Below, one piece after another: positions 56-31,490 of a stretch of DNA of 52,629 nucleotides. Under the pieces are notes generated by a model. The model was not told the DNA's origin. It saw only the letters and a program-made list of their open reading frames with translations, and ran no database searches. This DNA is from Lactiplantibacillus xiangfangensis (GTDB lineage Bacteria; Bacillota; Bacilli; Lactobacillales; Lactobacillaceae). The DNA lies in the NCBI RefSeq assembly GCF_001438845.1, contig NZ_JQCL01000001.1, positions 1 to 52,629 of the forward strand. Reading direction: 5' to 3'. A program made the position numbers and the translations under genes. Each line of letters opens with the position of its first letter. Within the stretch, counting starts at the first letter, position 1.

Positions 56-94
56 AAAAAAACCGGCAACGGAAATTACTTTCCATTGCCGGTT
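56..94 (-). terminator. Intrinsic terminator of the cold-shock gene
   Basis: Read on the minus strand, arms at 80-94 and 61-75 form a 15-bp stem with one mismatch around a 4-nt loop, followed by a run of U residues (A run at 56-62 on the plus strand). It lies 26 bases past the csp stop codon and so ends that monocistronic transcript. Confidence 0.85.
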
Positions 95-119
95 CGATTT
101 AGCCATTTAAGCTTTTAAA

Positions 120-320
120 TTACGCTTTAGTAACGTTAACAGCTTGTGGGCCACGATCGCTTTCTTCAACGTCGAAGTTTACAGCTTGGCCTTCGTCAAG
201 TGACTTGAAGCCGTCTTCTTGGATAGCTGAGAAATGTACGAATACATCGCTACCGTTTTCGCGAGTGATAAAACCAAAACCTTTATCGGCGTTAAACCAT
301 TTAACTGTTCCATGTTCCAT
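120..320 (-). CDS. CspA-family cold-shock protein (66 aa)
   Basis: Small nucleic-acid-binding OB-fold protein, a cytoplasmic RNA chaperone that melts mRNA structure at low temperature or during growth transitions. The whole protein is one cold-shock domain: it starts [18 protein letters not shown] and carries both RNA-binding motifs, KGFGFI (RNP1, about residues 13-18) and VFVHF (RNP2, about 27-31). Length matches the family (65-67 aa). The reading frame is open further upstream, but I chose the ATG at 320 because a strong AGGAGG site lies just before it and homology begins there. It has its own leader and terminator. Which Csp paralogue it is (lactobacilli carry several) cannot be told from sequence alone. 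Confidence 0.95.
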
Positions 321-574
321 AATAAAAAATCCTCCTAGTGCTTTTTGCACGTATAAAATAATGTAAATCATGATTCGGTGCAAATGGGGATAGTTTATTG
401 AAACGATCTGACCAAAATTACCTAACCAAGCTACATGAGTAATTGTAGCATAATGTCCTTAAAAAAGGTACCCAATCCCCAGTATTTCCTAAAATACTTT
501 ATGTCGTGATAAATAAAACAGAATAACTAGCGCCGTCATGAAAATTTTGTTCAGGACGATGCGAATATTTCATT
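321..574 (-). promoter_or_regulatory. csp promoter region and long 5' leader
   Basis: The 254-bp gap upstream of csp holds no ORF. On the minus strand an extended -10 (TG-N-TACAAT; hexamer at 442-447, TG at 449-450) would start transcription near 435, giving a leader of about 115 nt before the AGGAGG site. Long untranslated leaders are characteristic of cold-inducible csp genes, where they act as thermosensors. The promoter call rests on the -10 alone; I found no convincing -35. Confidence 0.45.
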
Positions 575-5059: not shown

Positions 5060-5250
5060 AGTACCAACTAACAATCAAACAACAAAGTGAATTAATCAAC
5101 TAAAGGTTTCAAATCATTAAAAACCTGATACCAACAAATTCAGTAACTTTGTTGCTTCCGGCCGTCCATGATTTCACCTGTCACGGCGACCTCCAGCTAA
5201 GGTGATTGCTCAATGAAAATTGATTTAGCTTATTTTTAACCAATCCTAGC

Positions 5251-5420
5251 GCAGCCGGCAGAACCAGTGGGCAGTGTCGGCCACGTTGCCTGGCGTTGTG
5301 TACCAAGCAACGTGACGGGGCGCCTTGAAAGACTTGGGCTTTAGGGCTTTCAAGCGAGGCGGAAGCCCGCACCTTGGCTGTAGCCGACCCCCACAGCCCA
5401 CTGATTCTGTCCGGCGGGGC
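5251..5420 (-). repeat. Multi-branched hairpin element, copy A
   Basis: GC-rich non-coding element in a gap without genes (5060-5506). The outer arms 5254-5272 and 5396-5415 pair at 18 of 19 positions with one bulge; a second helix pairs 5276-5281 with 5383-5388. Inside are hairpins CACGTTGC/GCAACGTG (5282-5289 with 5307-5314) and CTTGAAAG/CTTTCAAG (5324-5331 with 5347-5354), plus a weaker small one near 5357-5372. Read on the minus strand it shares CCGCCGGACAG, TGGGGG, CCTCG, GCCCCG and GCCGACAC in the same order with copy B at 16109-16276, while the stems differ. An ORF of 93 codons across it looks spurious. Confidence 0.7.
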
Positions 5421-5506
5421 AATGCAGAATCCTGTTTTTGTCACTAACCTTCGATATGACAACGATTGTGCCTATTTTAATATCCTCAGCTTCTAGTTAA
5501 CCAATC

Positions 5507-5552
5507 AAAAACGGTTTTTCCGGAAGTAAACCTTCCAGAAAAACCGTTTTTT
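5507..5552 (-). terminator. Strong terminator after the mini-MerR gene
   Basis: A 20-bp nearly perfect stem (about 5507-5526 with 5532-5552) with a 5-nt loop and T/A tracts on both sides, directly downstream of the gene at 5566-5784. It could act on both strands. Confidence 0.8.
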
Positions 5553-5565
5553 GATAACGTTAAAA

Positions 5566-5784
5566 TTAGTTGGCTGCACACTGTTCGCACAGTGGCATTA
5601 AATCCTTTAAGTCCTCGACGGAGGAGCCATTTTCTAAGAAGCAATTGACCATATCTAGCCAATATTGATCGTCCTCACTAAAAACTGCGTGAGTATCCTT
5701 GCATGGCAGTAATCCCGCTTGCGTATAAGTAACGATTTTATCAGCAGCGACCCCGCTTTGGGCTGCTAATTGTTCCAGAGTCAT
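5566..5784 (-). CDS. Small MerR-like HTH protein (72 aa)
   Basis: Residues 1-40 resemble only the N-terminal winged HTH of MerR proteins (MTLEQLAAQSGVAADKIVTY, then a short wing). The rest is one helix and a C-terminal CEQC pair. The usual long coiled coil is missing, so it may be a stand-alone DNA-binding or anti-regulator module, with the two cysteines possibly sensing a metal or redox state. It has its own strong terminator. It is divergent from azlCD, so control of that exporter is conceivable but not shown. Confidence 0.7.
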   Translation of the reverse strand: MTLEQLAAQSGVAADKIVTYTQAGLLPCKDTHAVFSEDDQYWLDMVNCFLENGSSVEDLKDLMPLCEQCAAN

Positions 5785-5968
5785 TTTCCCGTACCATTTG
5801 TCCTTTCAAAAAATCAATGTGCTTATGTTACGCCCGCTGGTTTTGAAATGCAAGCAACAATTTCATGACGGCTAAATTAAATTTCAATGATAACAATCTT
5901 CATTATTTTCACCAATAAGTGTAAACTATAATCTATTAACTTTTTTATTGGTCGTTTGGAGGTACGTT

Positions 5969-6670
5969 ATGGATTCAAGTCTCACGTTTAAAAGCGGGAT
6001 AAAAGACGTCATTCCCACCGTGTTCGGATACATTGGGGTTGGCCTGGCAATGGGCATCGTGGCCAATACAAGCCACCTTTCCGTACTGGCCGTCCTAATA
6101 ATGTCTCTGATCGTATACGCCGGTTCCGCACAATTTATTATCATTAGTATGCTACTTGCGGGTAGCCCAGTTTCAGCCATCGTTCTCTCAACCTTTCTAA
6201 TTAATTCACGCATGATTCTCATGAGTATGTCGATCGCGCAATATTTCAAAAAGGATTCATTGATGCAAAACATCGGGCTGGGTTTCTTGCTGACTGACGA
6301 GACCTTCGCGCTCAGCATGAACAAGCTCAATTTAACCCACCAACGGCTCAAACCAACCTGGTTGCACGCCGCTAACGTTGTTGCCTACCTCGTGTGGGCG
6401 GCTGCGACGGTCGTCGGTTGTTTGTTAGGAAACCTAATTACCGACCCCAACCAGTTCGGACTCGATTTTGCGGTCGTTGGCATGTTTATCGGGTTACTCT
6501 ACCTCCAAATCATTACGGACCGTAGCAAGCCCCTGACGACCCAACTATTGGTCGTTTTATTCGTCGCAATTGCCATGTACTTTTTGATGCGCTTTTTCCC
6601 GGGAAATATTGCATTATTACTGGCCACCTTACTCGGCTGTAGTTTTGGAATGGTGGTGAGTCCGAAGTGA
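5969..6670 (+). CDS. azlC: AzlC-family branched-chain amino-acid exporter, large subunit
   Basis: Integral membrane subunit of the AzlCD (YgaZH-type) exporter for branched-chain amino acids and analogues. The 233-aa length and early segments match the family (FGYIGVGLAMGIVA, then the YAGSAQFI signature near residue 50). Six or more hydrophobic segments are visible. I chose the ATG at 5969 because GGAGG sits 6 bases upstream; an in-frame upstream GTG lacks a ribosome site. A TATAAT hexamer at 5927-5932 is the likely -10. The gene overlaps azlD by 4 bases. Confidence 0.93.
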   Translation: MDSSLTFKSGIKDVIPTVFGYIGVGLAMGIVANTSHLSVLAVLIMSLIVYAGSAQFIIISMLLAGSPVSAIVLSTFLINSRMILMSMSIAQYFKKDSLMQNIGLGFLLTDETFALSMNKLNLTHQRLKPTWLHAANVVAYLVWAAATVVGCLLGNLITDPNQFGLDFAVVGMFIGLLYLQIITDRSKPLTTQLLVVLFVAIAMYFLMRFFPGNIALLLATLLGCSFGMVVSPK

Positions 6671-6993
6671 GTTCCTACATTCTAGTTACGATCCTACTCT
6701 GCGGACTGGTGACGTGGCTATCCCGCGTCGTTCCGTTTGCCGTCATTAAAAACATGGCGATCCCGCACTGGTTGATCAGCTTTCTCTCCTTCGTTCCGGT
6801 CGCCATCATGACGGCCATCTTCGTTGAAAGCCTATTAACGTACCATGCCGGACACTGGCCGGGATTCAACTTACCCAACATTTACGCGTCAATCCCAGCC
6901 ATCCTAGCCGGCGTTCTCACTAAGAGTTTACTCGCCGTCGTCATTACTGGCGTCGTTGCCATGGCGCTGATGCGTTTAATTGGTTGGGCTTAA
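6667..6993 (+). CDS. azlD: AzlD-family branched-chain amino-acid exporter, small subunit
   Basis: Small membrane partner of AzlC; 108 aa, four hydrophobic segments, with the family's early TWLSRVVPFAV motif. It starts at GTG overlapping the azlC stop (GTGA), a classic coupled arrangement for a 1:1 complex. A strong bidirectional terminator follows. Confidence 0.92.
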   Translation: MSSYILVTILLCGLVTWLSRVVPFAVIKNMAIPHWLISFLSFVPVAIMTAIFVESLLTYHAGHWPGFNLPNIYASIPAILAGVLTKSLLAVVITGVVAMALMRLIGWA

Positions 6994-7003
6994 CAAACAA
7001 TAT

Positions 7004-7060
7004 ATAATCATAAAAGCCGGTATTTCATTTGCTGAAATACCGGCTTTTATGATTATTTTT
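7004..7060. terminator. Bidirectional terminator between azlD and the APC permease
   Basis: A long, nearly perfect stem (about 7004-7027 with 7033-7056) with T tracts on both sides. It serves the convergent azlD and permease genes. Confidence 0.88.
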
Positions 7061-7074
7061 GTATATCAAGCTAA

Positions 7075-8382
7075 TTAATCTTGTTGATCGACCCGTTTTG
7101 AATGGTTGAAGTGCCGGTTTAAAAAGTAAAACGGCACGGCGATAACTAGACATCCCAGTCCCATGATCAACTGGAACGCGGAAGCTTTTGACAAGAGCCA
7201 TAAGCTCACCACGACCGCGACAATTGGCAGTACCGGTCCAAATGGCACCCGGAAACGGCTGCCACCTGGCGTCATCTTGCGGCGCCGGAAGACTAGTACG
7301 GCTAAAATCGTCGGAATGTACTGGGCAAATCGTGAAACCACTGAAATGGCCGCCAACGTTTGAAACGTCCCTGAAATGGCCAGTGGCACGGCGATTACAA
7401 ATGAAACTAACATTGCGACGGCTGGAACACCACGGCGGTTTCGATACCCAACAACCTTAGGCATAACCCCGTTATCCGCCATCGACGACCCGATTCGGGG
7501 CAGGTAGAATGACTGTGCAGTCGCAATCCCCAAGATGGAAACTAACGTACCGACCGCTACGATGGTCTTTCCGACGGGGCCAATCATTTTTTCAAGCCCA
7601 GCTTGAATCGGCGCAGGATTGCCTGCTAAGTGGGACCCTAAGACCCCAATCGACACGACTTGAATCAGAATATAAAGTAGCGCGACCACGCTGAGAACGA
7701 CCACAATGGCGAGTGGAATCGTTCGCTGTGGATTATGAAATTCCTGTGCGGCAATCGCAATCGCCTCAAAACCAGTGAACGCGTAAAAAATTAAAATTGC
7801 TGCGGAACCAAATGCGCTATTGAAGTTCGTCGTCGTGACCACAAACGGCGTAAAGTGTGCGCCGTTAACAAAGAATAATCCCACGATGACAAATAAGACT
7901 AGTGGAACGAGTTTGGCAATCGTCACCACGTTATTGACTAACTTAGTTAACGACACCCCTGAAATATTGATCAAAGTCAGTGTGCCTAACAAGACAAAAA
8001 TCGTGACCGCTTTCCACACCGGCTGTTGGATGACCGGAAAGATTGCACCTAACGCCGTCGCAAAGGCCGTCGACATCGTGGCCCACGCAATAATACTGAT
8101 GGCCCAAACGCTGAATCCGACCTCGTAACCAACAAAGTCGCCAAACGCTGATTTAGCGTAAAGGTACGGTCCCCCGTTAGCCTTAAAATACGTCGCGTCT
8201 TCCGCGTAACATAACGCGATCGAAATAATGAGCAACATATCAAAAATAAAAACTAAAATACTTGCGGGACCAATCAGGCCTTCCGCTTGTCCGGGCAGGA
8301 GAAAAATTCCTGACCCAATAATTGAATTAATTCCTAACAAAATAACACTTAACATGCCAAACTTGGCTTTCACCGTTATCAT
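7075..8382 (-). CDS. APC-family amino-acid permease
   Basis: Secondary transporter of the amino acid/polyamine/organocation superfamily in the cell membrane. The first helix has the family motif NSIIGSGIFLLPG (substrate-backbone-binding GSG turn). About 12 membrane segments are visible, and residues about 195-215 carry the FYAFTGFEAIAIAAQE segment typical of helix 6. Length (435 aa) is usual. The ATG at 8382 has only a weak AGAGAG site very close by; the GTG nine bases downstream (8373) is an alternative. Substrate cannot be deduced. Confidence 0.88.
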   Translation of the reverse strand: MITVKAKFGMLSVILLGINSIIGSGIFLLPGQAEGLIGPASILVFIFDMLLIISIALCYAEDATYFKANGGPYLYAKSAFGDFVGYEVGFSVWAISIIAWATMSTAFATALGAIFPVIQQPVWKAVTIFVLLGTLTLINISGVSLTKLVNNVVTIAKLVPLVLFVIVGLFFVNGAHFTPFVVTTTNFNSAFGSAAILIFYAFTGFEAIAIAAQEFHNPQRTIPLAIVVVLSVVALLYILIQVVSIGVLGSHLAGNPAPIQAGLEKMIGPVGKTIVAVGTLVSILGIATAQSFYLPRIGSSMADNGVMPKVVGYRNRRGVPAVAMLVSFVIAVPLAISGTFQTLAAISVVSRFAQYIPTILAVLVFRRRKMTPGGSRFRVPFGPVLPIVAVVVSLWLLSKASAFQLIMGLGCLVIAVPFYFLNRHFNHSKRVDQQD

Positions 8383-8469
8383 CTCTCTCTTTTTTTACCA
8401 CGATTCTATTATTAACGAATCTTCGTTAGCTGGCAAATTTAACGAACGCACTTCGCCCTACTGGAAGGG

Positions 8470-9330
8470 TTACTTTTGTCCTTTACCCCACAAAAACTTA
8501 ATCAGGGTCCGATCAACCTGCGGATTTTCGTGCAGCTTGCTATGGCGCGCCAACTTACCGGTAAACCGTTTCTCCCGATAAGACTTGGCCCGCGGCGCCA
8601 CCAAATATTTCAACGCTAATGACGACACGTTCGGCACCGTCCCGTCCGTATGTCCACCAATGTCACCATACAAGTTCAGCACAGCGACCTGATGCGCCGG
8701 TAATACTTGGCGCAGCTTAGTCATCTGCCGGTACGTGGCGTTCATTTTATTAGGACGCCCGTTTGCAGCCAGTTTTAGTCCCGCTGGTTGTTGGACGCTT
8801 TTCGGCACCCCTTTGAAGTCCAGTCCCGCAAAGTGGCCCGCAATGTTGACCTGCTTTCGCAACTTAGGTAACCGGCGATTCTGACTATTTTGTAGTGAAT
8901 AGTAAATCAACGAAATGTTACCCAGTGAGTGCCCGACCATGTTGAAGGATGTGAAGTGATACTGTTTTTGCAGTGCCACAACAACATTTTTAGCCCACCG
9001 GTCGTGTTGATTAAAGTTCAATTCCCGATTATTGGCGTAATTCACTTCCACGATCGGGTTAACAGCGCCTTTTTTGATTCGGCCCACTAATTTCACCTGA
9101 CCGTTCTTCGCAACCATCGCGCGGATGACCGTATTAGTCGCACCGGCCTTTTTTGCCGCATCCACCATGTGTTCTTCGGCATGGTAGCTACTGCCCCCAC
9201 CGTGGAAAAATAGCGTCGGGCTATTCGTATGGACCACGTTACTAGCCACTGGTTGACGACCACAACCGCTCAGACCTACCGCTACTAATAAGAGTAGTCC
9301 GAGCCAACCTACTTTCATCTTCAAACGCAT
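8470..9330 (-). CDS. DUF915-type alpha/beta-hydrolase lipoprotein
   Basis: Predicted exported, lipid-anchored hydrolase. The N-terminus is a lipoprotein signal peptide ending in the lipobox LSGC (about residue 23). The mature part carries FFHGGG (oxyanion strand) and GHSLGN (nucleophile elbow, Ser near residue 136); an Asp in NLYGDIGGHTDG and a His near the C-terminus (ARHSK) are acid and base candidates. This is the DUF915 arrangement, common in lactobacilli as surface hydrolases of unknown substrate. The ATG at 9330 follows AGAGGAGG. Confidence 0.88.
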   Translation of the reverse strand: MRLKMKVGWLGLLLLVAVGLSGCGRQPVASNVVHTNSPTLFFHGGGSSYHAEEHMVDAAKKAGATNTVIRAMVAKNGQVKLVGRIKKGAVNPIVEVNYANNRELNFNQHDRWAKNVVVALQKQYHFTSFNMVGHSLGNISLIYYSLQNSQNRRLPKLRKQVNIAGHFAGLDFKGVPKSVQQPAGLKLAANGRPNKMNATYRQMTKLRQVLPAHQVAVLNLYGDIGGHTDGTVPNVSSLALKYLVAPRAKSYREKRFTGKLARHSKLHENPQVDRTLIKFLWGKGQK

Positions 9331-9531
9331 TAACGTTCCTCCTCTGATTAACTGTCCTTAACTATACAGCCTTCAAGTAAGTCGAACACAATCCTAAATT
9401 TCAAAAAAGTTGAAATCGTTAGTAGCGGTGTACGATGGAGCAACAAGTTAATAAGCCTTTCAATTAAATAGCCATAGTTGCAGCGACTGGTTGCTCGCCC
9501 TAAGATGCTATCCAAAAAGGAAGCGCGGTCT

Positions 9532-10041
9532 ATGAAAATCCTAAAATCGTTTCTAAGTAGTTACTTTCGCGTTTTGATATTTTACATTGTCGCGATGTAT
9601 TTAGTCACCGCCCCGCCAACGGGGCCCTTCACATTCAAGTGGACGCTCTTCAACATTTTACTGACCGCTTCTTACAGCCTATTTTACCCGGTGTTAATTT
9701 ATCTTTTCCCGCACTTCAAGAAACCACGACTAGTATTAACTTCAGTAGGCACTAAAGCGTTGCGTCAAGGAATCCAAGACGATCGTGACAGCGGCCGCGG
9801 TTACCGCAACAGTATCAACCCAGTCGCTAGTCGTGAACGTCTGTTGATGGAAAAAGAAACCAAGGACGGCCTGATGACTTTGGAACTCTCATTTTTCATC
9901 CAAGGGGGTCTATTGTTAGTTGCCATTCCAGTTTTAGTCGGCGCCCTCTTGTTTCATTTAATAAAAAAACATACTAAAAACGGTTCAAAAAACCACCAGT
10001 CCAAAATTGAACTGGTGGTTCGTCTGTTTAATTTAAATTAG
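9532..10041 (+). CDS. Small membrane protein of unknown function
   Basis: Not recognised. A 169-aa protein with two N-terminal membrane helices (about residues 8-25 and 35-58), a hydrophilic middle with basic and Asp residues, and a third helix (about 123-147) followed by a Lys/Asn-rich tail. The ATG at 9532 has AAAGG about 11 bases upstream, a long spacing; an ATG at 9505 is open but lacks a site. The last codons run through the terminator hairpin of the convergent LysM gene (9987-10020), so the tail beyond about residue 152 is encoded by that hairpin. Confidence 0.6.
   Translation: MKILKSFLSSYFRVLIFYIVAMYLVTAPPTGPFTFKWTLFNILLTASYSLFYPVLIYLFPHFKKPRLVLTSVGTKALRQGIQDDRDSGRGYRNSINPVASRERLLMEKETKDGLMTLELSFFIQGGLLLVAIPVLVGALLFHLIKKHTKNGSKNHQSKIELVVRLFNLN
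9987..10020 (-). terminator. Terminator of the LysM gene, inside the convergent ORF
   Basis: A perfect 10-bp stem, AACCACCAGT / ACTGGTGGTT (9991-10000 with 10011-10020). On the minus strand a run of six Ts follows, as expected for the LysM gene stopping at 10054. The element lies within the last codons of the plus-strand membrane protein. Confidence 0.85.
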
Positions 10042-10053
10042 TTGGCTAGAATC

Positions 10054-10716
10054 TTAATACCAGCCGTTTGATTGCCAGAAGCTTTGTGCTGCGGACCATG
10101 AGCCGTAACGACTGGCCACATAGTTTTCAGCAACACGTTCTTGGTTAGCAGCAGAGTAGTCACCGTTCAAGTATGATGAACTTAATTGGTACTTTCCGAT
10201 GTATTGCCCATTACGAGCAGTATATGAACCGCCGGATTCCTTGTTGGCAATCCATGCTTTAGCGGCACTGTCGCCATTATTGTTTGCTACTGGCGCAGCG
10301 GGTGCAGCCGGTGCTTGTTGTACCGTTGCAGCTGATTGTACGGGCGCAGCTGCAGATTGTGGTGCTTGGCTTTGAACAGGTGCCTGTGATGCGGCAGCTG
10401 ATTGTGGTGCTTGGCTTTGAACGGGTGCTTGTGAAGCAGCAGCTGATTGTGGTGCTGCGGATTGCGCTTGTACGTTGGCAGTTGAAGTTGGCGTTACACC
10501 ATTGATTTCTAATTGTTGACCAACGTAAATCAAGTTAACGTTCTTTAACGCGTTAGCTTTTTCGATGGCAGAAATCGTCGTGTTATGAGTTTCAGCAAGG
10601 GCACTTACCGTGTCGCCAGCTTTAACCGTGATGGTGTCGGCATTTGCAGCGGTTGCCCCTAAAACTAGCAAACTAGCTGCGGCGGCAGTTGATAATAATA
10701 AACTCTTGATCTTCAT
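10054..10716 (-). CDS. Secreted LysM protein with transglycosylase/Apf-like C-terminal domain
   Basis: Exported cell-wall protein of 220 aa. Residues 1-26 are a signal peptide (cut near ANA-D). Residues about 28-71 form one LysM peptidoglycan-binding domain (ITVKAGDTVSALAETHNTT through NLIYVGQQLEI). Residues about 75-145 are a low-complexity Ala/Gln/Ser/Pro linker with a near-exact 15-residue repeat (QSAAASQAPVQSQAP, twice and partial). Residues about 150-220 are a small domain starting WIANKESGGSY, with the Glu and the GKYQLS segment seen in lytic-transglycosylase-like Apf/Rpf domains, ending FWQSNGWY. Probably remodels peptidoglycan during growth. SD and ATG at 10716 are clear. Confidence 0.9.
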   Translation of the reverse strand: MKIKSLLLSTAAAASLLVLGATAANADTITVKAGDTVSALAETHNTTISAIEKANALKNVNLIYVGQQLEINGVTPTSTANVQAQSAAPQSAAASQAPVQSQAPQSAAASQAPVQSQAPQSAAAPVQSAATVQQAPAAPAAPVANNNGDSAAKAWIANKESGGSYTARNGQYIGKYQLSSSYLNGDYSAANQERVAENYVASRYGSWSAAQSFWQSNGWY

Positions 10717-11217
10717 AATATAAATTCTTCACTCCTGTGATTTTGTATTTAGTAATCTGTAGCACTGCACCCCGTGGGTTGCAGTACTTAACAACACGAG
10801 TTAGTATACCGACCGAATGTAACAGGCCAATAGCAACCGGATTACTATTTGGGCCAATTTCTGTAATATATCGGGGATTTCGTAATATTTTGTAACATTA
10901 AGCCCGGAATTGGTTGGGTATGTTAGTTTAAGTTAACCTATTCAATCTGCATTCTTTCCCATGAAACCGCTCTAAATTGGCGCCCGTAGCTTTATCTTAT
11001 GCCCTAAAGCAAGTATAATGATGGAAGCATATTTAGTTTTCGTTAGCCTCAATGTTTAATTGAATTAACACAATTTAATTCGGTAAGAAACCATTACAAT
11101 TCTCTAAACCACTTTACTTAAAGATTGTAATTAGGTAAATTGACAGCGGACCACTAAGTATTCTATAAGATAAGTATTTTAACCATTCAAACTTTAAAGA
11201 TTGAGAGATGAACATAC
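10717..11217. promoter_or_regulatory. 501-bp divergent regulatory gap, LysM gene / asnB
   Basis: No gene seen. On the LysM side a hairpin of about 10 bp (about 10761-10788, ACTGCA-type arms around an ACGG loop) would sit at the head of the LysM mRNA and could stabilise it. On the asnB side there is a good promoter: TTGACA at 11140-11145, 18-bp spacer, TATAAG at 11164-11169, 43 bp before the asnB start. There is no T-box motif here, unlike upstream of asnA. Confidence 0.6.
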
Positions 11218-13116
11218 ATGTGCGGTTTTGCTGGTTGCTTAACTGATCGGACGAAGACGGATAACGCCGCTTACGATCAGACCATCCACGAAATGACGAA
11301 AATGATTGTCCATCGGGGACCCGATGACGATGGTTACTTTGCCGACGACAACATTACCATGGGGTTTCGGCGTTTAAGTATCATTGACTTGGCCGGTGGA
11401 CATCAACCATTGTCTTACGATAATGAACGTTACTGGATGACATTTAATGGGGAAATTTATAACTACGTTGAATTGCGCGCGCAATTAAAACAAGAAGGTT
11501 ATGAATTCAAGACCAACTCCGACTCTGAGGTTATTCTTGGCATGTATGCCAAATACAAGGAAAACGCCACGAAGTATCTCCGTGGGATGTTTGCCTTTGT
11601 TATTTGGGATAAACAGGAAAAGACCCTGTTTGCGGCTCGGGACCAATTCGGAATCAAGCCGTTTTACTACGCCGTCTCTGGTGACGACTTCTACTACGCT
11701 TCTGAAAGCAAGAGTATCTACAAGATCTTAAAGGATAAAACGTTTGATAAGAACGCCTTGCAAGATTACATGACCTTCCAGTTCGTGCCAGAACCAGAAA
11801 CACTGACTAAACAAATTAAAATGCTCGAACCGGGCTGCTCACTAACTAAGAAGTTAGGGTCAGCACCACGGATTGAACGCTACTATCACCGTGAATTTCA
11901 TCCCGTTAAACGTTCCGAGGACGAATACGCCCAAAAGATCAAGGACGCTTTGATTGATTCCGTTAAGATTCACATGCGTTCCGACGTCCCAGTTGGTTCC
12001 TTCCTATCTGGTGGGATCGATTCCTCGATCATCGTGGCCATTGCTAAAAACTTTAACCCGAATCTTCAAACCATCTCCGTCGGCTTTGAACGCGAAGGCT
12101 ACAGCGAATTAGACGTCGCCCAAGAAACCGCTGAAAAGCTCGGCGTGGAAAACTTCAGTATGACGATTACGCCAGAAGCCTTCATGAAGGCCTTCCCGCA
12201 CTTCGTTTGGAGTATGGATGATCCGTTAGCTGACCCGGCCGCTGTGCCGCAGTACTTCTTAGCTAAAGAAGCTGTTAAGCACGTTAAGGTTGCTTTGACC
12301 GGTGAAGGCGCCGATGAATTATTCGGTGGTTATACGATTTACCACGAACCCGAATCATTGAAACCATTCCGTTACACGAAACCAATCAACGGTGCGCTGA
12401 AACGGATTGCCACGATGATGCCAGAAGGAATGCGCGGTCGCTCATTCTTAATGCGCGGGACCACGCCATTGGAAAACCGCTACGTTGGTAACGCCTTTAT
12501 CTTTGGTGAACAGGAAAAACAATTGTTCATGAAAGACTACAATCGCAACCATCCTTTCCAGTCAATTACGCACCCATTCTACGACGAATCAGTGGATTAC
12601 GATCCAATTAGCCGGATGCAATTTATCGATATGCATACTTGGCTTAACGGTGACTTGTTGCACAACGCTGACCGGACAACGATGGCGCACAGCTTGGAAT
12701 TACGGACACCATTTGTGGACCGTGAAGTCTACAACCTGGCCGCTGAAATTCCAGCTGATTTACGGATCAGCCACGGCACAACTAAGTACATTTTACGAAA
12801 AGCCGTTGAGGACATTGTTCCCGCCCACGTCTTGCACCGTAAGAAGTTAGGCTTCCCAGTGCCAATTCGTTTCTGGCTTAAAGATGAAATGTACGATTGG
12901 GCTAAGCAAATTATTAACGACTCACAAACGGACCAGTACTTTGATAAATCTTACTTCTTGAAGTTATTAGACGATCACAAAGCTGGTCTTCGCGATAACT
13001 CCCGGAAGCTCTGGACCGTTTTGACGTTCATGATGTGGCACAAGATTTACGTTGAAAGTGACCACTTAATGGATAGTCCTGAAGCCAACGCCTTAGCATC
13101 AAAAGTCGAGGAGTAA
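11218..13116 (+). CDS. asnB: AsnB-type glutamine-dependent amidotransferase
   Basis: Two-domain enzyme of 632 aa: an N-terminal class II glutamine amidotransferase (Cys2 nucleophile, MCGFAGC; HRGPDD; FNGEIYNY) that releases ammonia from Gln, and a C-terminal ATP-pyrophosphatase synthetase (SGGIDSS at residues 264-270; GEGADELFGGY). Annotated families make Asn from Asp, but in L. plantarum an AsnB paralogue is known to amidate mDAP of peptidoglycan precursors. Here it is followed 6 bp later by aspartokinase and then by mDAP-type murE, and it lacks the Asn T-box seen on asnA, so the cell-wall role is more likely (inference). ATG 11218 puts Cys at position 2, as catalysis requires. Confidence 0.93.
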   Translation: MCGFAGCLTDRTKTDNAAYDQTIHEMTKMIVHRGPDDDGYFADDNITMGFRRLSIIDLAGGHQPLSYDNERYWMTFNGEIYNYVELRAQLKQEGYEFKTNSDSEVILGMYAKYKENATKYLRGMFAFVIWDKQEKTLFAARDQFGIKPFYYAVSGDDFYYASESKSIYKILKDKTFDKNALQDYMTFQFVPEPETLTKQIKMLEPGCSLTKKLGSAPRIERYYHREFHPVKRSEDEYAQKIKDALIDSVKIHMRSDVPVGSFLSGGIDSSIIVAIAKNFNPNLQTISVGFEREGYSELDVAQETAEKLGVENFSMTITPEAFMKAFPHFVWSMDDPLADPAAVPQYFLAKEAVKHVKVALTGEGADELFGGYTIYHEPESLKPFRYTKPINGALKRIATMMPEGMRGRSFLMRGTTPLENRYVGNAFIFGEQEKQLFMKDYNRNHPFQSITHPFYDESVDYDPISRMQFIDMHTWLNGDLLHNADRTTMAHSLELRTPFVDREVYNLAAEIPADLRISHGTTKYILRKAVEDIVPAHVLHRKKLGFPVPIRFWLKDEMYDWAKQIINDSQTDQYFDKSYFLKLLDDHKAGLRDNSRKLWTVLTFMMWHKIYVESDHLMDSPEANALASKVEE

Positions 13117-13122
13117 CACCCG

Positions 13123-14325
13123 ATGGAAATTATTGTACAAAAATTCGGCGGCACTTCCGTTAAGGACATGGCCGCACGTAAACAAGCCTTGAAACACGTC
13201 CAGTACGCGGTCGACCAAGGTGATAAAGTAATCGTCGTTGTTTCCGCCATTGGCCGTAAAGGAGCGCCCTACGCGACCGACTCATTACTTGGTTTAGTCG
13301 GCGCGGACCAGTCTCGGCTCACTAATCGAGAATTAGACATGCTCGTTTCCGTTGGTGAAACCATTTCAACGGCAGTCTTTACCGAACTCGCCCGTGAACA
13401 AGGCCTCAACGTGACGGCCATGACCGGACACGACGCGGGAATTGTCACTAATGATGATTATCAAAACGCAAAGATTTTGCGCGTTGACCCTAAACCGATT
13501 AAAGACGCCTTCGTCGATGCCGACGTGGTTGTCGTAACTGGTTTTCAAGGCGCAACCGAAAATGGTCGCATCACAACGATTGGTCGCGGCGGTTCCGATA
13601 CTTCCGCTGCCATTCTTGGTGCGGCTTTACACGCTAAACGGGTCGACATCTTTACCGACGTTAACGGCATGATGACGGCTGACCCCCGCTTGGTCACCCA
13701 CGCGCGCTTCATTAAGAGTATCAGTTATGAAGAACTCGCCAACATGGCCCACGAAGGTGCAAAAGTTATTCATCCCCGCGCGGTTGAAATTGCTGAACAA
13801 GCCCACGTTCCAATGCGGATTCGGTCTACTTATCAAGAACCGGACGCCCTTGGAACGTTGGTCAGTGACCGCACAACAACGAAGATCGAACACTACCGGA
13901 CCGTTACCGGGATCGCGCACCAAACTGATTTAACCCAGTTTACCGTGCCAACCGATACATTAAGTTCGAGCGAAATCTTCCAGTTGATGGCGCAACACGG
14001 GTTAAGCGTTGATTTTATCAACATTACGCAACACCAAGTTGTCTTCAACTTAGTGGACGGCGACGCAACCGTTGCCAAAGACTTACTCACCAACGCCCAC
14101 GTTACCTGTCAGGCCATTGGTCACTGTGCCAAGGTTTCAGTCGTTGGTGCCGGAATCACTGGGACGCCCGGTGTTACGGCCCGGATCGTAACGGCCTTGA
14201 GTACGCAAAACATTGACATTTTACAATCGACTGACAGTTACACCACAATTTGGGTGTTAGTCAAAGAAGCCGATTTAAAACCAGCCATGAACGCGTTACA
14301 TGACGAATTTTTAGGCATTGAATAA
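13123..14325 (+). CDS. Aspartokinase
   Basis: Phosphorylates L-aspartate, the first step towards Lys/mDAP, Thr and Met. The amino-acid kinase domain begins with KFGGTSVKD (residues 6-14), has the GRGGSDTSA motif (about 154-162) and FTDVNG-MTADPR. Two C-terminal ACT domains (about 270-400) give feedback control by end products. The 400-aa length suits a monofunctional single-start enzyme. It starts 6 bp after asnB behind GAGGAG, so the two are co-transcribed, and a terminator follows. Which isozyme (Lys-, Thr- or DAP-sensitive) is uncertain; the neighbours argue for supply of mDAP. Confidence 0.94.
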   Translation: MEIIVQKFGGTSVKDMAARKQALKHVQYAVDQGDKVIVVVSAIGRKGAPYATDSLLGLVGADQSRLTNRELDMLVSVGETISTAVFTELAREQGLNVTAMTGHDAGIVTNDDYQNAKILRVDPKPIKDAFVDADVVVVTGFQGATENGRITTIGRGGSDTSAAILGAALHAKRVDIFTDVNGMMTADPRLVTHARFIKSISYEELANMAHEGAKVIHPRAVEIAEQAHVPMRIRSTYQEPDALGTLVSDRTTTKIEHYRTVTGIAHQTDLTQFTVPTDTLSSSEIFQLMAQHGLSVDFINITQHQVVFNLVDGDATVAKDLLTNAHVTCQAIGHCAKVSVVGAGITGTPGVTARIVTALSTQNIDILQSTDSYTTIWVLVKEADLKPAMNALHDEFLGIE

Positions 14326-14334
14326 ATTCATACT

Positions 14335-14390
14335 AATGAAGCGTAGCCGCATCTTACTGAATCAGTAATGTGCGGCTACGCTTCATTTTT
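14335..14390 (+). terminator. Terminator of the asnB-aspartokinase operon
   Basis: A perfect stem of about 17 bp (arms around GAAGCGTAGCCGCA and its complement) with a 19-nt loop, followed by a T tract. Confidence 0.88.
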
Positions 14391-14516
14391 ATCCAACTGA
14401 CTTAACAAACCACTGCTTTAAATCTGGCCCTTTACGCCCTACCTCGACAATTCGCTTATTTGCATGTATTCTAGAAACAGTTATTTACGGATTCTATTGA
14501 AAAGGACGTAACTAAA

Positions 14517-15998
14517 ATGAAAGCAAGCGTATTAATTAATAGTTTAAAATTTAAGCAAGTTAAACCCGCCTTGCAAGATGACTTTGACGTCACCATGCTG
14601 ACACAGGATACCCGGGAAGTTAAACCCGGCACCATGTTCATCTGTGTTGACGGATACCACGTTGACGGCCACGATTTAGCTGGTCAAGCCGTGGAAAAAG
14701 GCGCGAAGATTCTCGTCGCACAAAAGCCCATCGATGTGAACGTCCCCGTTATCTATGTGCAAAATACGGAACGGGCCATGGCTATCTTAGCGGACGTCTT
14801 CTACGACGCACCGAGCCAAAAGATGCGGATGATTGGGGTCACCGGGACTAACGGAAAGACCACCGTCACCCACCTGATTGAACAAATCTACCGGGACCAA
14901 CAACAGGCTACCGGTTTAATTGGAACGATGTACCGCAAGATCAAGGATGAAAAGTTACCAACGGCAAATACGACCCCGGATGCTATTACTACCCAACGGA
15001 CACTTGCCGCAATGCGTGACGCTAACGTGGAGACCGTTGCCATGGAAGTATCCTCAATCGCCCTCGTGCTTGGACGGGTTTGGGGCATCGACTACGACAT
15101 TGCCGTCTTCACCAACCTCACCCAAGATCACTTGGACTTCCATAAAACCATGGCTAACTACGCCGAAGCTAAGGCCATGTTATTTGCCCAATTAGGTAAC
15201 AAGTACGGCGCTAATGGGACCAACAAAGTTGCCGTCCTCAACACTGACGATCCAGTGGGCCGCGAATTTGAACAGTACACCGCCGCGCACGTCTTAACGT
15301 TTGGGCTCAAACCAGACGCCATGATTAACGCGCAAAACGTTCAAATTCAGAGTCACGGTACTGAATTTGACCTTTCCGTCTTCGGTCACGTCACCCACGT
15401 CACCATGAAGCTCATCGGGCAATTCAACGTCTACAACATGTTGGCCGCCTTTTCAGCCGCATACGCGAGTGGGATTCCCGAAGAACAAATCATCGCTTCC
15501 CTTGAAAAAGTCACCGGGGTCAAGGGCCGTTTTCAAGCCGTGCCTTCACATACCGGCGTCAGTGTCATTGTGGATTACTCACACACACCAGATGGCCTGT
15601 TAAACGCACTTGAAACCATTCAAGACTTCGCTAAAAAAGATATTTACTGCGTTGTGGGTTGTGGTGGTGACCGTGACAAGGGCAAACGACCGAAGATGGC
15701 TAAAATTGCCGTTCAACGTAGCACTAAACCAATCTTCACTTCGGATAACCCCCGGACAGAAGACCCAACGGCCATTCTTCACGACATGGTCGCCGGCGTT
15801 CCGGATGCTGGTGTTCCCGTCTATGAAGACCGTCACGTGGCGATTGCAAAGGCCATCGAAGCGGCCCAACCAGGCGACGTTGTCTTAATTGCTGGTAAGG
15901 GTCACGAAGATTACCAGATCATCGGTCGCACTAAGCACCACTTCGACGACTACGAAGAAGCTGCAAAGGCGTTGGCATTGAAGCCAACCATCAACTAG
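14517..15998 (+). CDS. murE: UDP-MurNAc-dipeptide:meso-diaminopimelate ligase (MurE)
   Basis: Cytoplasmic ATP-dependent ligase adding the third amino acid of the peptidoglycan stem peptide. Mur ligase features: GVTGTNGKTT (ATP P-loop, near residue 108), NLTQDHLDFH, NYAEAK (the carbamylated Lys region), and VDYSHTPDG. DNPR at residues 410-413 is the signature of mDAP-adding enzymes as opposed to Lys-adding ones. The 493-aa length is normal. SD AAAAGGACG precedes the ATG. It has its own promoter region and terminator, and lies just past asnB and aspartokinase, consistent with an mDAP wall. Some lactobacilli carry a second murE, so it may not be the only copy. Confidence 0.95.
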   Translation: MKASVLINSLKFKQVKPALQDDFDVTMLTQDTREVKPGTMFICVDGYHVDGHDLAGQAVEKGAKILVAQKPIDVNVPVIYVQNTERAMAILADVFYDAPSQKMRMIGVTGTNGKTTVTHLIEQIYRDQQQATGLIGTMYRKIKDEKLPTANTTPDAITTQRTLAAMRDANVETVAMEVSSIALVLGRVWGIDYDIAVFTNLTQDHLDFHKTMANYAEAKAMLFAQLGNKYGANGTNKVAVLNTDDPVGREFEQYTAAHVLTFGLKPDAMINAQNVQIQSHGTEFDLSVFGHVTHVTMKLIGQFNVYNMLAAFSAAYASGIPEEQIIASLEKVTGVKGRFQAVPSHTGVSVIVDYSHTPDGLLNALETIQDFAKKDIYCVVGCGGDRDKGKRPKMAKIAVQRSTKPIFTSDNPRTEDPTAILHDMVAGVPDAGVPVYEDRHVAIAKAIEAAQPGDVVLIAGKGHEDYQIIGRTKHHFDDYEEAAKALALKPTIN

Positions 15999-16019
15999 TA
16001 ATAATAATTCCAATCATAT

Positions 16020-16070
16020 AAAATAGTCCCAGTTCGAAGCCAAGTCTGACTTTGAACTGGGACTATTTTT
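16020..16070 (+). terminator. murE terminator
   Basis: Arms AAAATAGTCCCAGTTC and GAACTGGGACTATTTT pair perfectly over about 16 bp, followed by Ts, 22 bases past the murE stop. Confidence 0.88.
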
Positions 16071-16108
16071 AATTATATTCACAGTACTAATTATGCTTAA
16101 ACTATCCG

Positions 16109-16276
16109 CTCCGCCGGACAGGGTTGGGTGCTATGGGGGACAGTTCCAGCCACAGGACGGTCTGGAACCTCGAGTCAAAGCCGACAATTCACGTCTTTGA
16201 CTCGCCCCGCAAGATTGGCGCAAAATTCCCCCGCCAATCTTGCCGACACAGCACACCAGCCCTGTCCGACTCCGCT
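16109..16276 (+). repeat. Multi-branched hairpin element, copy B
   Basis: GC-rich non-coding element. The outer arms 16115-16132 and 16250-16268 pair with few defects. Three perfect inner hairpins: 7 bp (16143-16149 with 16162-16168, loop 12), 10 bp (16171-16180 with 16195-16204, loop 14) and 12 bp (16209-16220 with 16232-16243, loop 11). The single-stranded joints CCGCCGGACAG, TGGGGG, CCTCG, GCCCCG and GCCGACAC recur in the same order in copy A (5251-5420, opposite strand), whereas stem sequences differ but stay complementary. That pattern points to selection on structure. Overlapping open frames here look spurious. Confidence 0.75.
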
Positions 16277-16301
16277 AAAACTAACTATATTGTTGTTAGT
16301 T

Positions 16302-16500
16302 CAGTCGGGTACTCGGAGGGTGACGCTGATGACATCGGTCGTGACGGTGGTGTTAGCGCGGCGCTTTTTTCTGCCGAGCTTAAACCACGGACAGTCCGGG
16401 ATAGTTGCGTTTTTTGCAGCTATTCCGGGCGAGGGGCTAGACCGCTCTCCAGGCTAGCCCCGGTCCCACGACCGTATGTTATCAGCGCCAACCGGACTGG
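16302..16500. other. Second large multi-branched structure (element C)
   Basis: Begins about 25 bp after copy B. The outer stem pairs 16322-16343 with 16467-16489 (about 20 bp, one bulge, one or two non-Watson-Crick pairs), and CAGTC/GACTG pair beyond that. Inner hairpins: an imperfect one at about 16352-16385 with a T-run loop; 13 bp including two G-U pairs (16397-16409 with 16417-16429), loop GTTTTTT; and a perfect 8 bp (GGGGCTAG/CTAGCCCC, 16433-16440 with 16454-16461). A TTTTT run follows the outer stem at 16500. It shares the architecture of copies A and B but not their joint sequences. Strand of action is unknown. Confidence 0.55.
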
Positions 16501-16519
16501 TTTTTAGTCATCTACCCGA

Positions 16520-17176
16520 CTACAAGTAACTGGTTTCGTTCCAGCGCTTAATCGTGAAGTTTTGGTTATCGTACGTTTCTAAGACCGTTAAACTATCGTT
16601 GTCAACGATTCCCGTTCCGACTGTCTGACCGTTTACGACGAACGGCTGACGCAGGTCTTTGACCGCAACGTTCAACAATGCTTTAATGCCAAAAGTAGTG
16701 GTTAAGCCGTGTGAAACGATCAAAATCGGTAAGGGACTGTCCAAGCCGACCGTTGCGACGGCATCGTGAATCGCTGCCGTCACCCGGTTTAAAAATTCTG
16801 GGTAGCTCTCACCACCAGTAGATAACTCAGGTTGATACTTTTCTGGTTGATTAACACATACGTCATACTGCTCATGTGGCTCAACCGTCGCCTCAATTTG
16901 ACCTTCCCACTTGCCAAAATCCATTTCTTTCAGCCGTGAATCCAGTGTAATTTCATCCTGCCAGCGATTAGGCGCTACCACGTACTTGGCCGTGTTTAAT
17001 GCCCGTAGCTGGGGACTACTGTACACTCTGGCAAAGCGAACGTCCTTTAAATACGCTCCGGCCCGCTTGGCACCATCAATGCCACTTGCAAGCAATGGCG
17101 AATCACAGCCACCGCCCTGAAAGCGGTGCTCGACGTTATACTTCGTCTGACCATGGCGAATAAAATAAAGTTCCAT
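16520..17176 (-). CDS. Histidine phosphatase family protein (phosphoglycerate mutase-like), copy 1
   Basis: Branch-1 histidine phosphatase of 218 aa. The N-terminal FIRHGQT holds the phosphorylated His (residue 8); the second RH-type site is SHG (about residue 155) and the acid/base Glu lies in LKEMDFGKWEG. It shares the segment VEHRFQGGG-DSPLL and overall layout with the next gene (17198-17866), so the pair is a tandem duplication. Such proteins in lactobacilli dephosphorylate small metabolites; the substrate is not known and true glycolytic mutase activity is unlikely. SD GGAGG precedes the ATG; the gap to the upstream paralogue is 21 bp. Confidence 0.92.
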   Translation of the reverse strand: MELYFIRHGQTKYNVEHRFQGGGCDSPLLASGIDGAKRAGAYLKDVRFARVYSSPQLRALNTAKYVVAPNRWQDEITLDSRLKEMDFGKWEGQIEATVEPHEQYDVCVNQPEKYQPELSTGGESYPEFLNRVTAAIHDAVATVGLDSPLPILIVSHGLTTTFGIKALLNVAVKDLRQPFVVNGQTVGTGIVDNDSLTVLETYDNQNFTIKRWNETSYL

Positions 17177-31196: not shown

Positions 31197-31214
31197 AAAT
31201 GGCACAAGATAAAA

Positions 31215-31490
31215 AACGTAGGAAAGAGGAGTACGATTAATCAACCTGCCAGTGAATCGGGGATGAGTGGAAACCCGACCAGTACTTGATTAATCCGAAA
31301 AACACTTTCTTAGTTGCTAACTGAAATAACCACGTTAAAGTAGGATTAGCCGTTAACCGGTACGTTATCATCGGTGGAGTATGTTCGTACTCTATTTAGA
31401 GCTGGTCTACATTTTGGTAGACAACTTGGGTGGTACCGCGAAAGAAGTCTTTCGTCCCTTGATAATTCAAGGGATGGAAGGCTTTTTTCT
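31215..31490 (+). promoter_or_regulatory. T-box riboswitch, Asn (AAC) specifier
   Basis: Leader that senses uncharged tRNA-Asn. Stem I has a perfect 10-bp helix GATTAATCAA / TTGATTAATC, a lower AGGAAAG/CTTTCTT helix and the AGTA element at 31231-31234; the specifier loop on its 3' side reads GAAAAACA, with the AAC codon at 31301-31303. The T-box GGGTGGTACCGCG is at 31428-31440. It ends in the terminator at 31447-31488. Uncharged tRNA-Asn would favour the antiterminator and asnA expression. Confidence 0.93.
31447..31488 (+). terminator. T-box terminator hairpin
   Basis: 16-bp stem with G-U pairs (31447-31462 with 31467-31482), loop TAAT, then six Ts; it overlaps the antiterminator alternative. 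Confidence 0.9.

Follow-up and report, generated by a model that had tools for sequence, protein, structure and literature searches.

The window analysed here, a stretch of 52,629 nucleotides from Lactiplantibacillus xiangfangensis, contains two multi-branched intergenic elements, A and B, for which a preliminary description had offered three explanations: a structured RNA family, a mobile structured DNA or a protein-bound cruciform. Our analysis makes it probable that A and B are non-autonomous transposable elements, namely miniature inverted-repeat transposable elements (MITEs), which would be mobilized by an IS4-type transposase and whose interior would be under constraint as a DNA fold. 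The mobile structured DNA among the earlier suggestions, likened to MITEs or to repetitive extragenic palindromes (REP), agrees with the terminal inverted repeats (TIRs), the target duplications of 7 to 9 bp, the absence of both elements at the corresponding places in L. garii and the presence of a transposase-bearing element with the same ends. A covariance model, R1, was built and searched against the window's own genome, congeneric genomes and a draw of Lactobacillaceae genomes; D1 and D2 denote below a branched domain and its inverted homologue.

Terminal repeats, target duplications and a probable partner insertion sequence

Many of the Lactiplantibacillus elements are bounded by 13-bp TIRs, CTAAAGGTTGAAA and its reverse, which enclose D1 followed by the reversed D2. 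Allowing at most two mismatches in the ends, and fetching several elements by their ends, we collected 58 TIR-bounded elements, which are gene-free and 200 to 569 bp long. Perfect duplications flank 28 of the 58 (7 bp in 15, 8 bp in 11 and 9 bp in 2), whereas the control with mispaired flanks gave 0.14% at 7 bp and none at 8 or 9 bp. On the left, T5 occurs within 40 bp of 29 of the 58 elements and A5 within 40 bp of 3; on the right, A5 occurs in 23 and T5 in 5.

The position relative to genes is also skewed. Among 98 elements lying between crude open reading frame (ORF) calls, 51 are convergent, 44 tandem and 3 divergent, compared with 88, 286 and 117, respectively, for 491 element-free gaps of at least 60 bp; the tandem-placed elements run 24 with and 20 against the direction of the genes. 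Such placement could be expected if the elements were useful to the host and retained as insulators or terminators between genes. We regard this as improbable, because purging of harmful insertions predicts the same placement, the domains come and go between close relatives, and the elements have no clear strand bias. At one spot directly after a terminator, two close relatives carry the element in opposite orientations (L229:3560-4060 and L034:1058-1628), reflecting either inversion in place or repeated insertion. A site in genome G000 (L224) that had been presumed empty turned out to hold an element without its interior.

For the partner search, DDE_Tnp_1 genes were sought in six genomes, and the flanks of the 30 loci returned were checked. 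Locus L409 in genome G001 is a 1567-bp insertion sequence (IS) whose ends are exactly of the CTAAAGGTTGAAA type, with the 7-bp duplication ATAGGAG on both sides (L409/L411). Its 457-residue product matches the NCBIfam IS4 transposase model at 460 bits, against a cut-off of 250, and the Pfam domains DDE_5 and DDE_Tnp_1; it contains YARRWQIEGYFKIAK, read as the YREK motif, an assignment that uses the spacing rule of this motif. Three further loci (L412, L413 and L415) have the same ends as the MITEs, with a single mismatch at the left end of L413, which bears GACTTTA on both sides. In G012, a near relative of the window genome, a 22-residue fragment of the transposase stands with the same left end. 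The ISPepr1 subgroup is described, in the passages of De Palmenaer et al. (2008, PMC2266710) drawn on here, as 1500 to 1600 bp long, with ends YT-AA-YTT---A, duplications of 7 to 8 bp and AT-rich targets. CTAAAGGTTGAAA agrees with these ends at 7 of the 8 specified letters, position 7 being G and not C/T, and the size of L409 (1567 bp) and its 7-bp ATAGGAG fall within the ISPepr1 ranges. Judged from these sequence features, the MITEs are probably mobilized in trans.

Several observations weigh against this interpretation. Thirty of the 58 TIR-bounded elements have no perfect duplication, the duplication at L412 is only 5 bp, and L415 has no perfect one. The L409 transposase finds a match in 7 of the 21 congeneric genomes, several of them by fragments, and none in the window's genome or in G009, where many copies have clean duplications. 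Apart from the ends, the L409-type insertion sequences have no sequence in common with the MITEs. In 42 of the 58, a terminator-like hairpin with a T-run faces the element from one or both sides; as such a hairpin also faces away in 31 of the 58, the argument for terminator targeting comes from the T-tracts only. Furthermore, one pair of neighboring domains lies in the same orientation (L110, two same-strand matches).

Other candidates for the mobility gene were examined and set aside. A 3.7-kb TIR pair in G009 (L317) and a hydrolase-like gene between two domains (L138) turned out not to be autonomous copies, since ordinary genes there lie between two separate elements, and a 1.4-kb TIR pair (L320) likewise has ordinary genes inside. 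IS256 transposases in 10 genomes had no TIR pair around them. A pattern joining the TIR to a start codon gave 2 matches in four genomes, and ten IS4-type transposase loci gave no R1 match. A gene for a 196-residue tyrosine recombinase (Phage_integrase) lies at L012:5450-6040 on the minus strand, beside a polysaccharide-type cluster and directly after a truncated left A-like element (L005/L012); since no such gene was seen inside the other elements read, it was taken as a chance neighbor. Within L409 itself, a terminator-like hairpin occupies positions 785-825, just inside the left end and before the transposase gene.

The MITE reading suggests the following course of events. An IS4-family transposase near the ISPepr1 subgroup would cut and paste the MITEs in trans, and insertion would take place next to a T-tract at the end of a gene, presumably the least harmful site. 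In lineages that keep copying, selection may act on the folded DNA, as a hairpin or a cruciform, perhaps because this serves as a protein-binding site or facilitates excision or re-replication. Pieces such as D1, or the interior of D2, could later be lost by deletion between short repeats.

Anatomy and distribution of the branched domains

In the D1 domain, about 20 pairs form the closing stem; hairpins 1 and 2 are borne by an inner GGGG/CCCC stem and hairpin 3 by the outer junction, and D1 of element B follows this plan. Unpaired positions with constant letters include the loops of hairpin 1 (AGCC..CGGTCT) and hairpin 2, the CCTC joint and the CGACAC preceding the closing strand. In the window, D1 of element A occupies 5245-5422 on the minus strand (R1, 153.4 bits, model positions 1-177), and D1 of element B occupies 16106-16279 on the plus strand (R1, 180.7 bits). 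The preliminary description had reported five joints common to the two copies in the same order, and sequence and model matches agree with it on the joints, the coordinates and the strands. Its claim that all arms pair holds for hairpins 2 and 3 in both copies and for hairpin 1 in B; hairpin 1 of A does not make a good stem, and this hairpin is weak in A-like copies generally. That the stems differ almost entirely is true between subfamilies and not between any two copies, as A-like copies are 80 to 95% alike throughout (blastn).

The location given earlier is right, and yet it covers only one domain of a larger element in each case. The whole of element A is 397 bp long (5100-5496, minus strand), with decayed ends CTAAAGGTTTCAA (from 5100) and ..CTTCTAG (to 5496); its flanks TTAATCAA (5092-5099) and TTAACCAA (5497-5504) match at 7 of 8 letters and are read as a decayed target duplication. 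A remnant of its D2 without the interior lies at about 5150-5200 on the minus strand, identified by comparison with the corresponding locus L128 of a close relative, which has 127 bp extra at this place and an R1 match at L128:445-623. Element B continues into an inverted D1 homologue, D2, at 16313-16495 on the minus strand, which has a long closing stem and hairpins of its own (R1 minus-strand match, 40.8 bits), and by-eye comparison with other copies places a left remnant of its subterminal sequence at about 16080-16105 on the plus strand. Terminal repeats were not found for B. By MurE, the Lactiplantibacillus from which the window comes is close to a metagenome-assembled genome (99% identical) and to L. 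garii (96%). In the closest relative, D2 of A is whole and D1 of B is cleanly missing between short repeats (L128). L. garii has no element at either place (A site, L129), and its spacers are too divergent to show an empty site.

The two-domain arrangement is general. Downstream of D1, many copies bear a second branched domain that R1 matches on the opposite strand with up to 82 bits. The D2 score of B (40.8 bits) is no proof by itself, because B's own D1 read in reverse scores 40.8 bits as well, and the reverse complement of a domain can reach 55 bits. Among the 150 best matches, neighboring domains at most 400 bp apart follow the plus-then-minus order in 25 of 25 pairs, a few of these pairs perhaps being two separate elements. 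In D2, compensatory changes occur at 31 of 44 predicted pairs among 62 relatives, and by eye the hairpin-1 loop is common to D1 and D2.

The family is abundant. The 2.99-Mb genome has 11 exact occurrences of CCGCCGGACAG and none of the reversed pattern; for CCGCTCCGTCGG, allowing up to one mismatch, there are 44, some of them in genes or tRNAs, compared with 3 for the control. R1 gives 107 matches in the window's genome, with at least 45 distinct strong places among the matches listed; these counts are of matches and not of copies, as D1, D2 and reverse-strand echoes (up to 55 bits) may count apart. Among 21 congeneric genomes, 16 have matches at E ≤ 0.001, four of them weak (G008, G013, G015 and G017; best E 1e-7 to 2e-4), with a maximum of 129 in one genome (130 candidates scored per genome). 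In the family draw of 251 genomes (10 candidates scored per genome), R1 matches appeared in 36 genomes and in 8 of 40 genera, genus g15 only at E 3e-9. Further genomic copies, whose absence the preliminary description had named as a refutation, thus exist. Plasmid and phage records gave no blastn match to window positions 16090-16520. On viral contigs, 43 stretches have an exact 15-mer and none matches R1 at E ≤ 1, so they are probably chance occurrences.

The earlier description knew of no named family with these joints, and Rfam returned nothing over its gathering score on the A and B stretches (best weak matches, E 0.17 and 0.71). We found no description of this repeat family in the literature searched, a search that did not reach most subscription papers. 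Elsewhere in the window, positions 31210-31462 (plus strand) and 60-452 (minus strand) have Rfam matches to a T-box leader and the cspA thermoregulator.

Pairing, wobble pairs and the level of constraint

Two pattern searches yielded 41 loci, of which 23 own-genome copies were aligned; the 18 left out were A-like near-duplicates, copies with truncations or gaps, a copy close to the end of a contig, and unrelated places. On a structure of 56 pairs, 91.7% of the cells of these 23 copies pair and both sides have changed in 34 of the 56 pairs, while none of 500 shuffles was as well paired and slid versions paired at 32 to 43%. The covariation noticed earlier is thereby confirmed. With one copy from each of 36 genomes in 6 genera, aligned by fitting to the model and excluding four genomes that matched weakly, 89.9% of the pairs are Watson-Crick and compensatory change is seen in 53 of the 56. 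In 66 B-like copies, the stem columns are 15% off consensus and 7.4% of pairs are broken, compared with 28% if the two sides were independent.

Pairing far above shuffles is what was observed, and selection for the structure is an interpretation of it. The same pattern could arise in an ordinary MITE if template switching or gene conversion copied one arm onto the other and kept the arms complementary without selection. The changes are Watson-Crick with few intermediates, and copies with more divergent loops are no worse paired (r = -0.07). In the genus, unpaired columns do not exceed paired ones in average constancy (mean entropy 0.556 vs 0.538; at least 95% constant, 31 of 65 vs 48 of 112), and the whole of hairpin 3 differs at one orthologous place (L244 vs L015); each of these would fit arm copying. 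In contrast, among the 36 genomes, constancy of 90% or more is reached by 19 of 65 unpaired columns and by 22 of 112 paired ones (mean top frequency, 0.706 vs 0.644). The loop letters common to several genera favor selection acting on the folded state, and arm copying alone does not account for such fixed letters. It seems that selection and arm copying may both act, and arm copying may add to the forces on the stems or even be the main one; as a full explanation without selection, we consider it possible and rather doubtful.

The locus L244 was also noted in its own right. Its hairpin 3 is wholly unlike that of the corresponding copy in the window's genome, which looks like the exchange of a complete hairpin, and at L244:9210-9900 the left part of a second element seems to be nested inside another element.

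The number of G-U and A-C pairs can separate the RNA and DNA levels. Under selection on an RNA strand, single changes should leave G-U far above A-C, whereas at the DNA level both should be alike. As a control, RNase P from 20 of the 21 genomes, with each strand refolded, gave G-U:A-C counts of 339:4 for the sense strand (columns, 35:4) and 194:29 for the antisense strand (19:14). On the fixed structure, 86 copies of D1 gave 73:189 (columns, 36:38). Refolded, D1 gave 68:97, and one D1 copy per genome from the 36 genomes of 6 genera gave 31:65. Three random sets of 20 D1 copies gave 17:36, 12:22 and 23:16, and D2 refolded gave 108:66 and 243:82 on its two strands. No strand of D1 or D2 comes near the RNase P sense figure, which suggests that the constraint on the fold apparently acts at the level of DNA rather than RNA, as far as sequence comparison can tell.

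Some results do not sit easily with this conclusion. The D1 antisense strand has a G-U excess, 189:73 on the fixed structure and 326:54 when refolded, and in the three random sets it gave 86:15, 78:14 and 123:13; the last of these exceeds the RNase P antisense figure, and that set also has more G-U than A-C on the strand read. The antisense lean lies mostly in the closing stem and hairpin 1, with hairpins 2 and 3 about even in the per-pair list. The model-fitted alignments (86-copy D1, B-like and 36-genome sets) lean towards the structure, and broken pairs are about as frequent in copies without detectable ends (8.5%) as in those with both (8.9%; 83 of 86 copies classed).

A structured non-coding or cis-acting RNA family, spread as a repeat and selected for its RNA fold, would account for the strong covariation, the conserved loops, the stable predicted folds and the antisense G-U excess. 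We consider it very unlikely. The strand read lacks a G-U excess except in the third random set, the D1 antisense figure of 326:54 and both D2 figures are near or below the level of the non-functional strand of RNase P, placement relative to genes has no clear strand bias (24:20), and Rfam has no match over its gathering score. The structured-RNA suggestion in the preliminary description thus fails the comparison with RNase P, although the antisense lean remains, and an antisense RNA may have a minor role.

The occurrence of the domains outside Lactiplantibacillus bears on what is mobile. A crude scan of four other genera (17 entries, two places listed twice, giving 15 distinct places) found no IS4-type ends with a duplication, which also counts against IS4-type mobilization as a general account. 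In G245, of another genus, L261:1896-2326 does bear such ends (CTAAAAGTTGCAA..TTGCAACCTTTAA) with an 8-bp duplication containing one mismatch and a weak model match (43 bits); G245 copies are alike only over the core, and inverted motifs of the GCCGCCT type were seen by eye. It may be that the branched core predates the IS4-type ends around it or exists independently of them.

Taken further, the D1-D2 core would itself be the mobile or functional unit, an ancient Lactobacillaceae unit selected as folded DNA, with a protein recognizing the loops AGCC..CGGTCT and CAC.GC on extruded (cruciform) or single-stranded DNA, and only carried by IS4-type ends, which would have captured it in Lactiplantibacillus. 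The presence of the core in 8 genera, the 15 places without such ends, the intactness of copies that lack ends and the near-invariance of the loop AGCC..CGGTCT and the CAC.GC joint over 6 genera would all fit. The ends at L261 speak against it, no partner protein was found, and the end scan was crude, so we hold this extension to be unlikely; if it were true, the cargo of a mobile element would be a DNA shape, not a gene. An IS4-mobilized MITE with a DNA-level fold constraint remains our preferred reading.

Comparison with known systems

The repeat is apparently a MITE of known type with an unusual branched interior, not a new RNA gene. L409-type insertion sequences resemble the ISPepr1 subgroup in most of the specified end letters, 7- to 8-bp duplications, AT-rich targets, size and transposase type, as far as the passages of PMC2266710 describe it. 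The MITEs here have about 13 to 16 bp of end sequence in common with the L409-type insertion sequences, and their interior is not a shortened IS. Bacterial MITEs as presented in the main text of a review (PMC10969869), where the string "lactobac" does not occur, are likewise short, gene-free and intergenic, with terminal ends, duplications and stable predicted folds; the elements here differ from those described there in their two inverted homologous multi-branched domains and in the compensatory change at the DNA level. In Anabaena sp. 90, according to passages of PMC3542288, MITEs of up to 541 bp have predicted folds with several inverted repeats, and the genome also has an ISPepr1-type insertion sequence; those MITEs have no evident similarity to the IS ends of that genome, and the passages contain no covariation test. 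The intergenic stem-loop repeats of various bacteria, such as bcr1, BOX, RUP and Efa-1 (163 bp, Enterococcus faecalis) are, by their description in passages of PMC2267715, of similar size and share common predicted folds; Lac-1 of L. johnsonii, the sole lactobacillus family in those passages, lies in genes.

With dozens of copies per genome and 8 genera, the repeat would be one of the rare natural cases in which constraint on DNA secondary structure has left a record. Such repeats are easily mistaken for candidate RNAs, and the count of G-U against A-C, calibrated on RNase P in the same genus, offers a simple test that separates RNA from DNA folds in repeats. As the elements vary between close relatives, they shape the intergenic regions of food lactobacilli. 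A REP unit is one short hairpin, is moved by a Y1 (RAYT) transposase and makes no target duplication, and REPINs are two inverted hairpin units that form a high-copy mobile repeat. Unlike the REPIN/RAYT system, the elements here have target duplications, large branched domains and a DDE transposase with the same ends.

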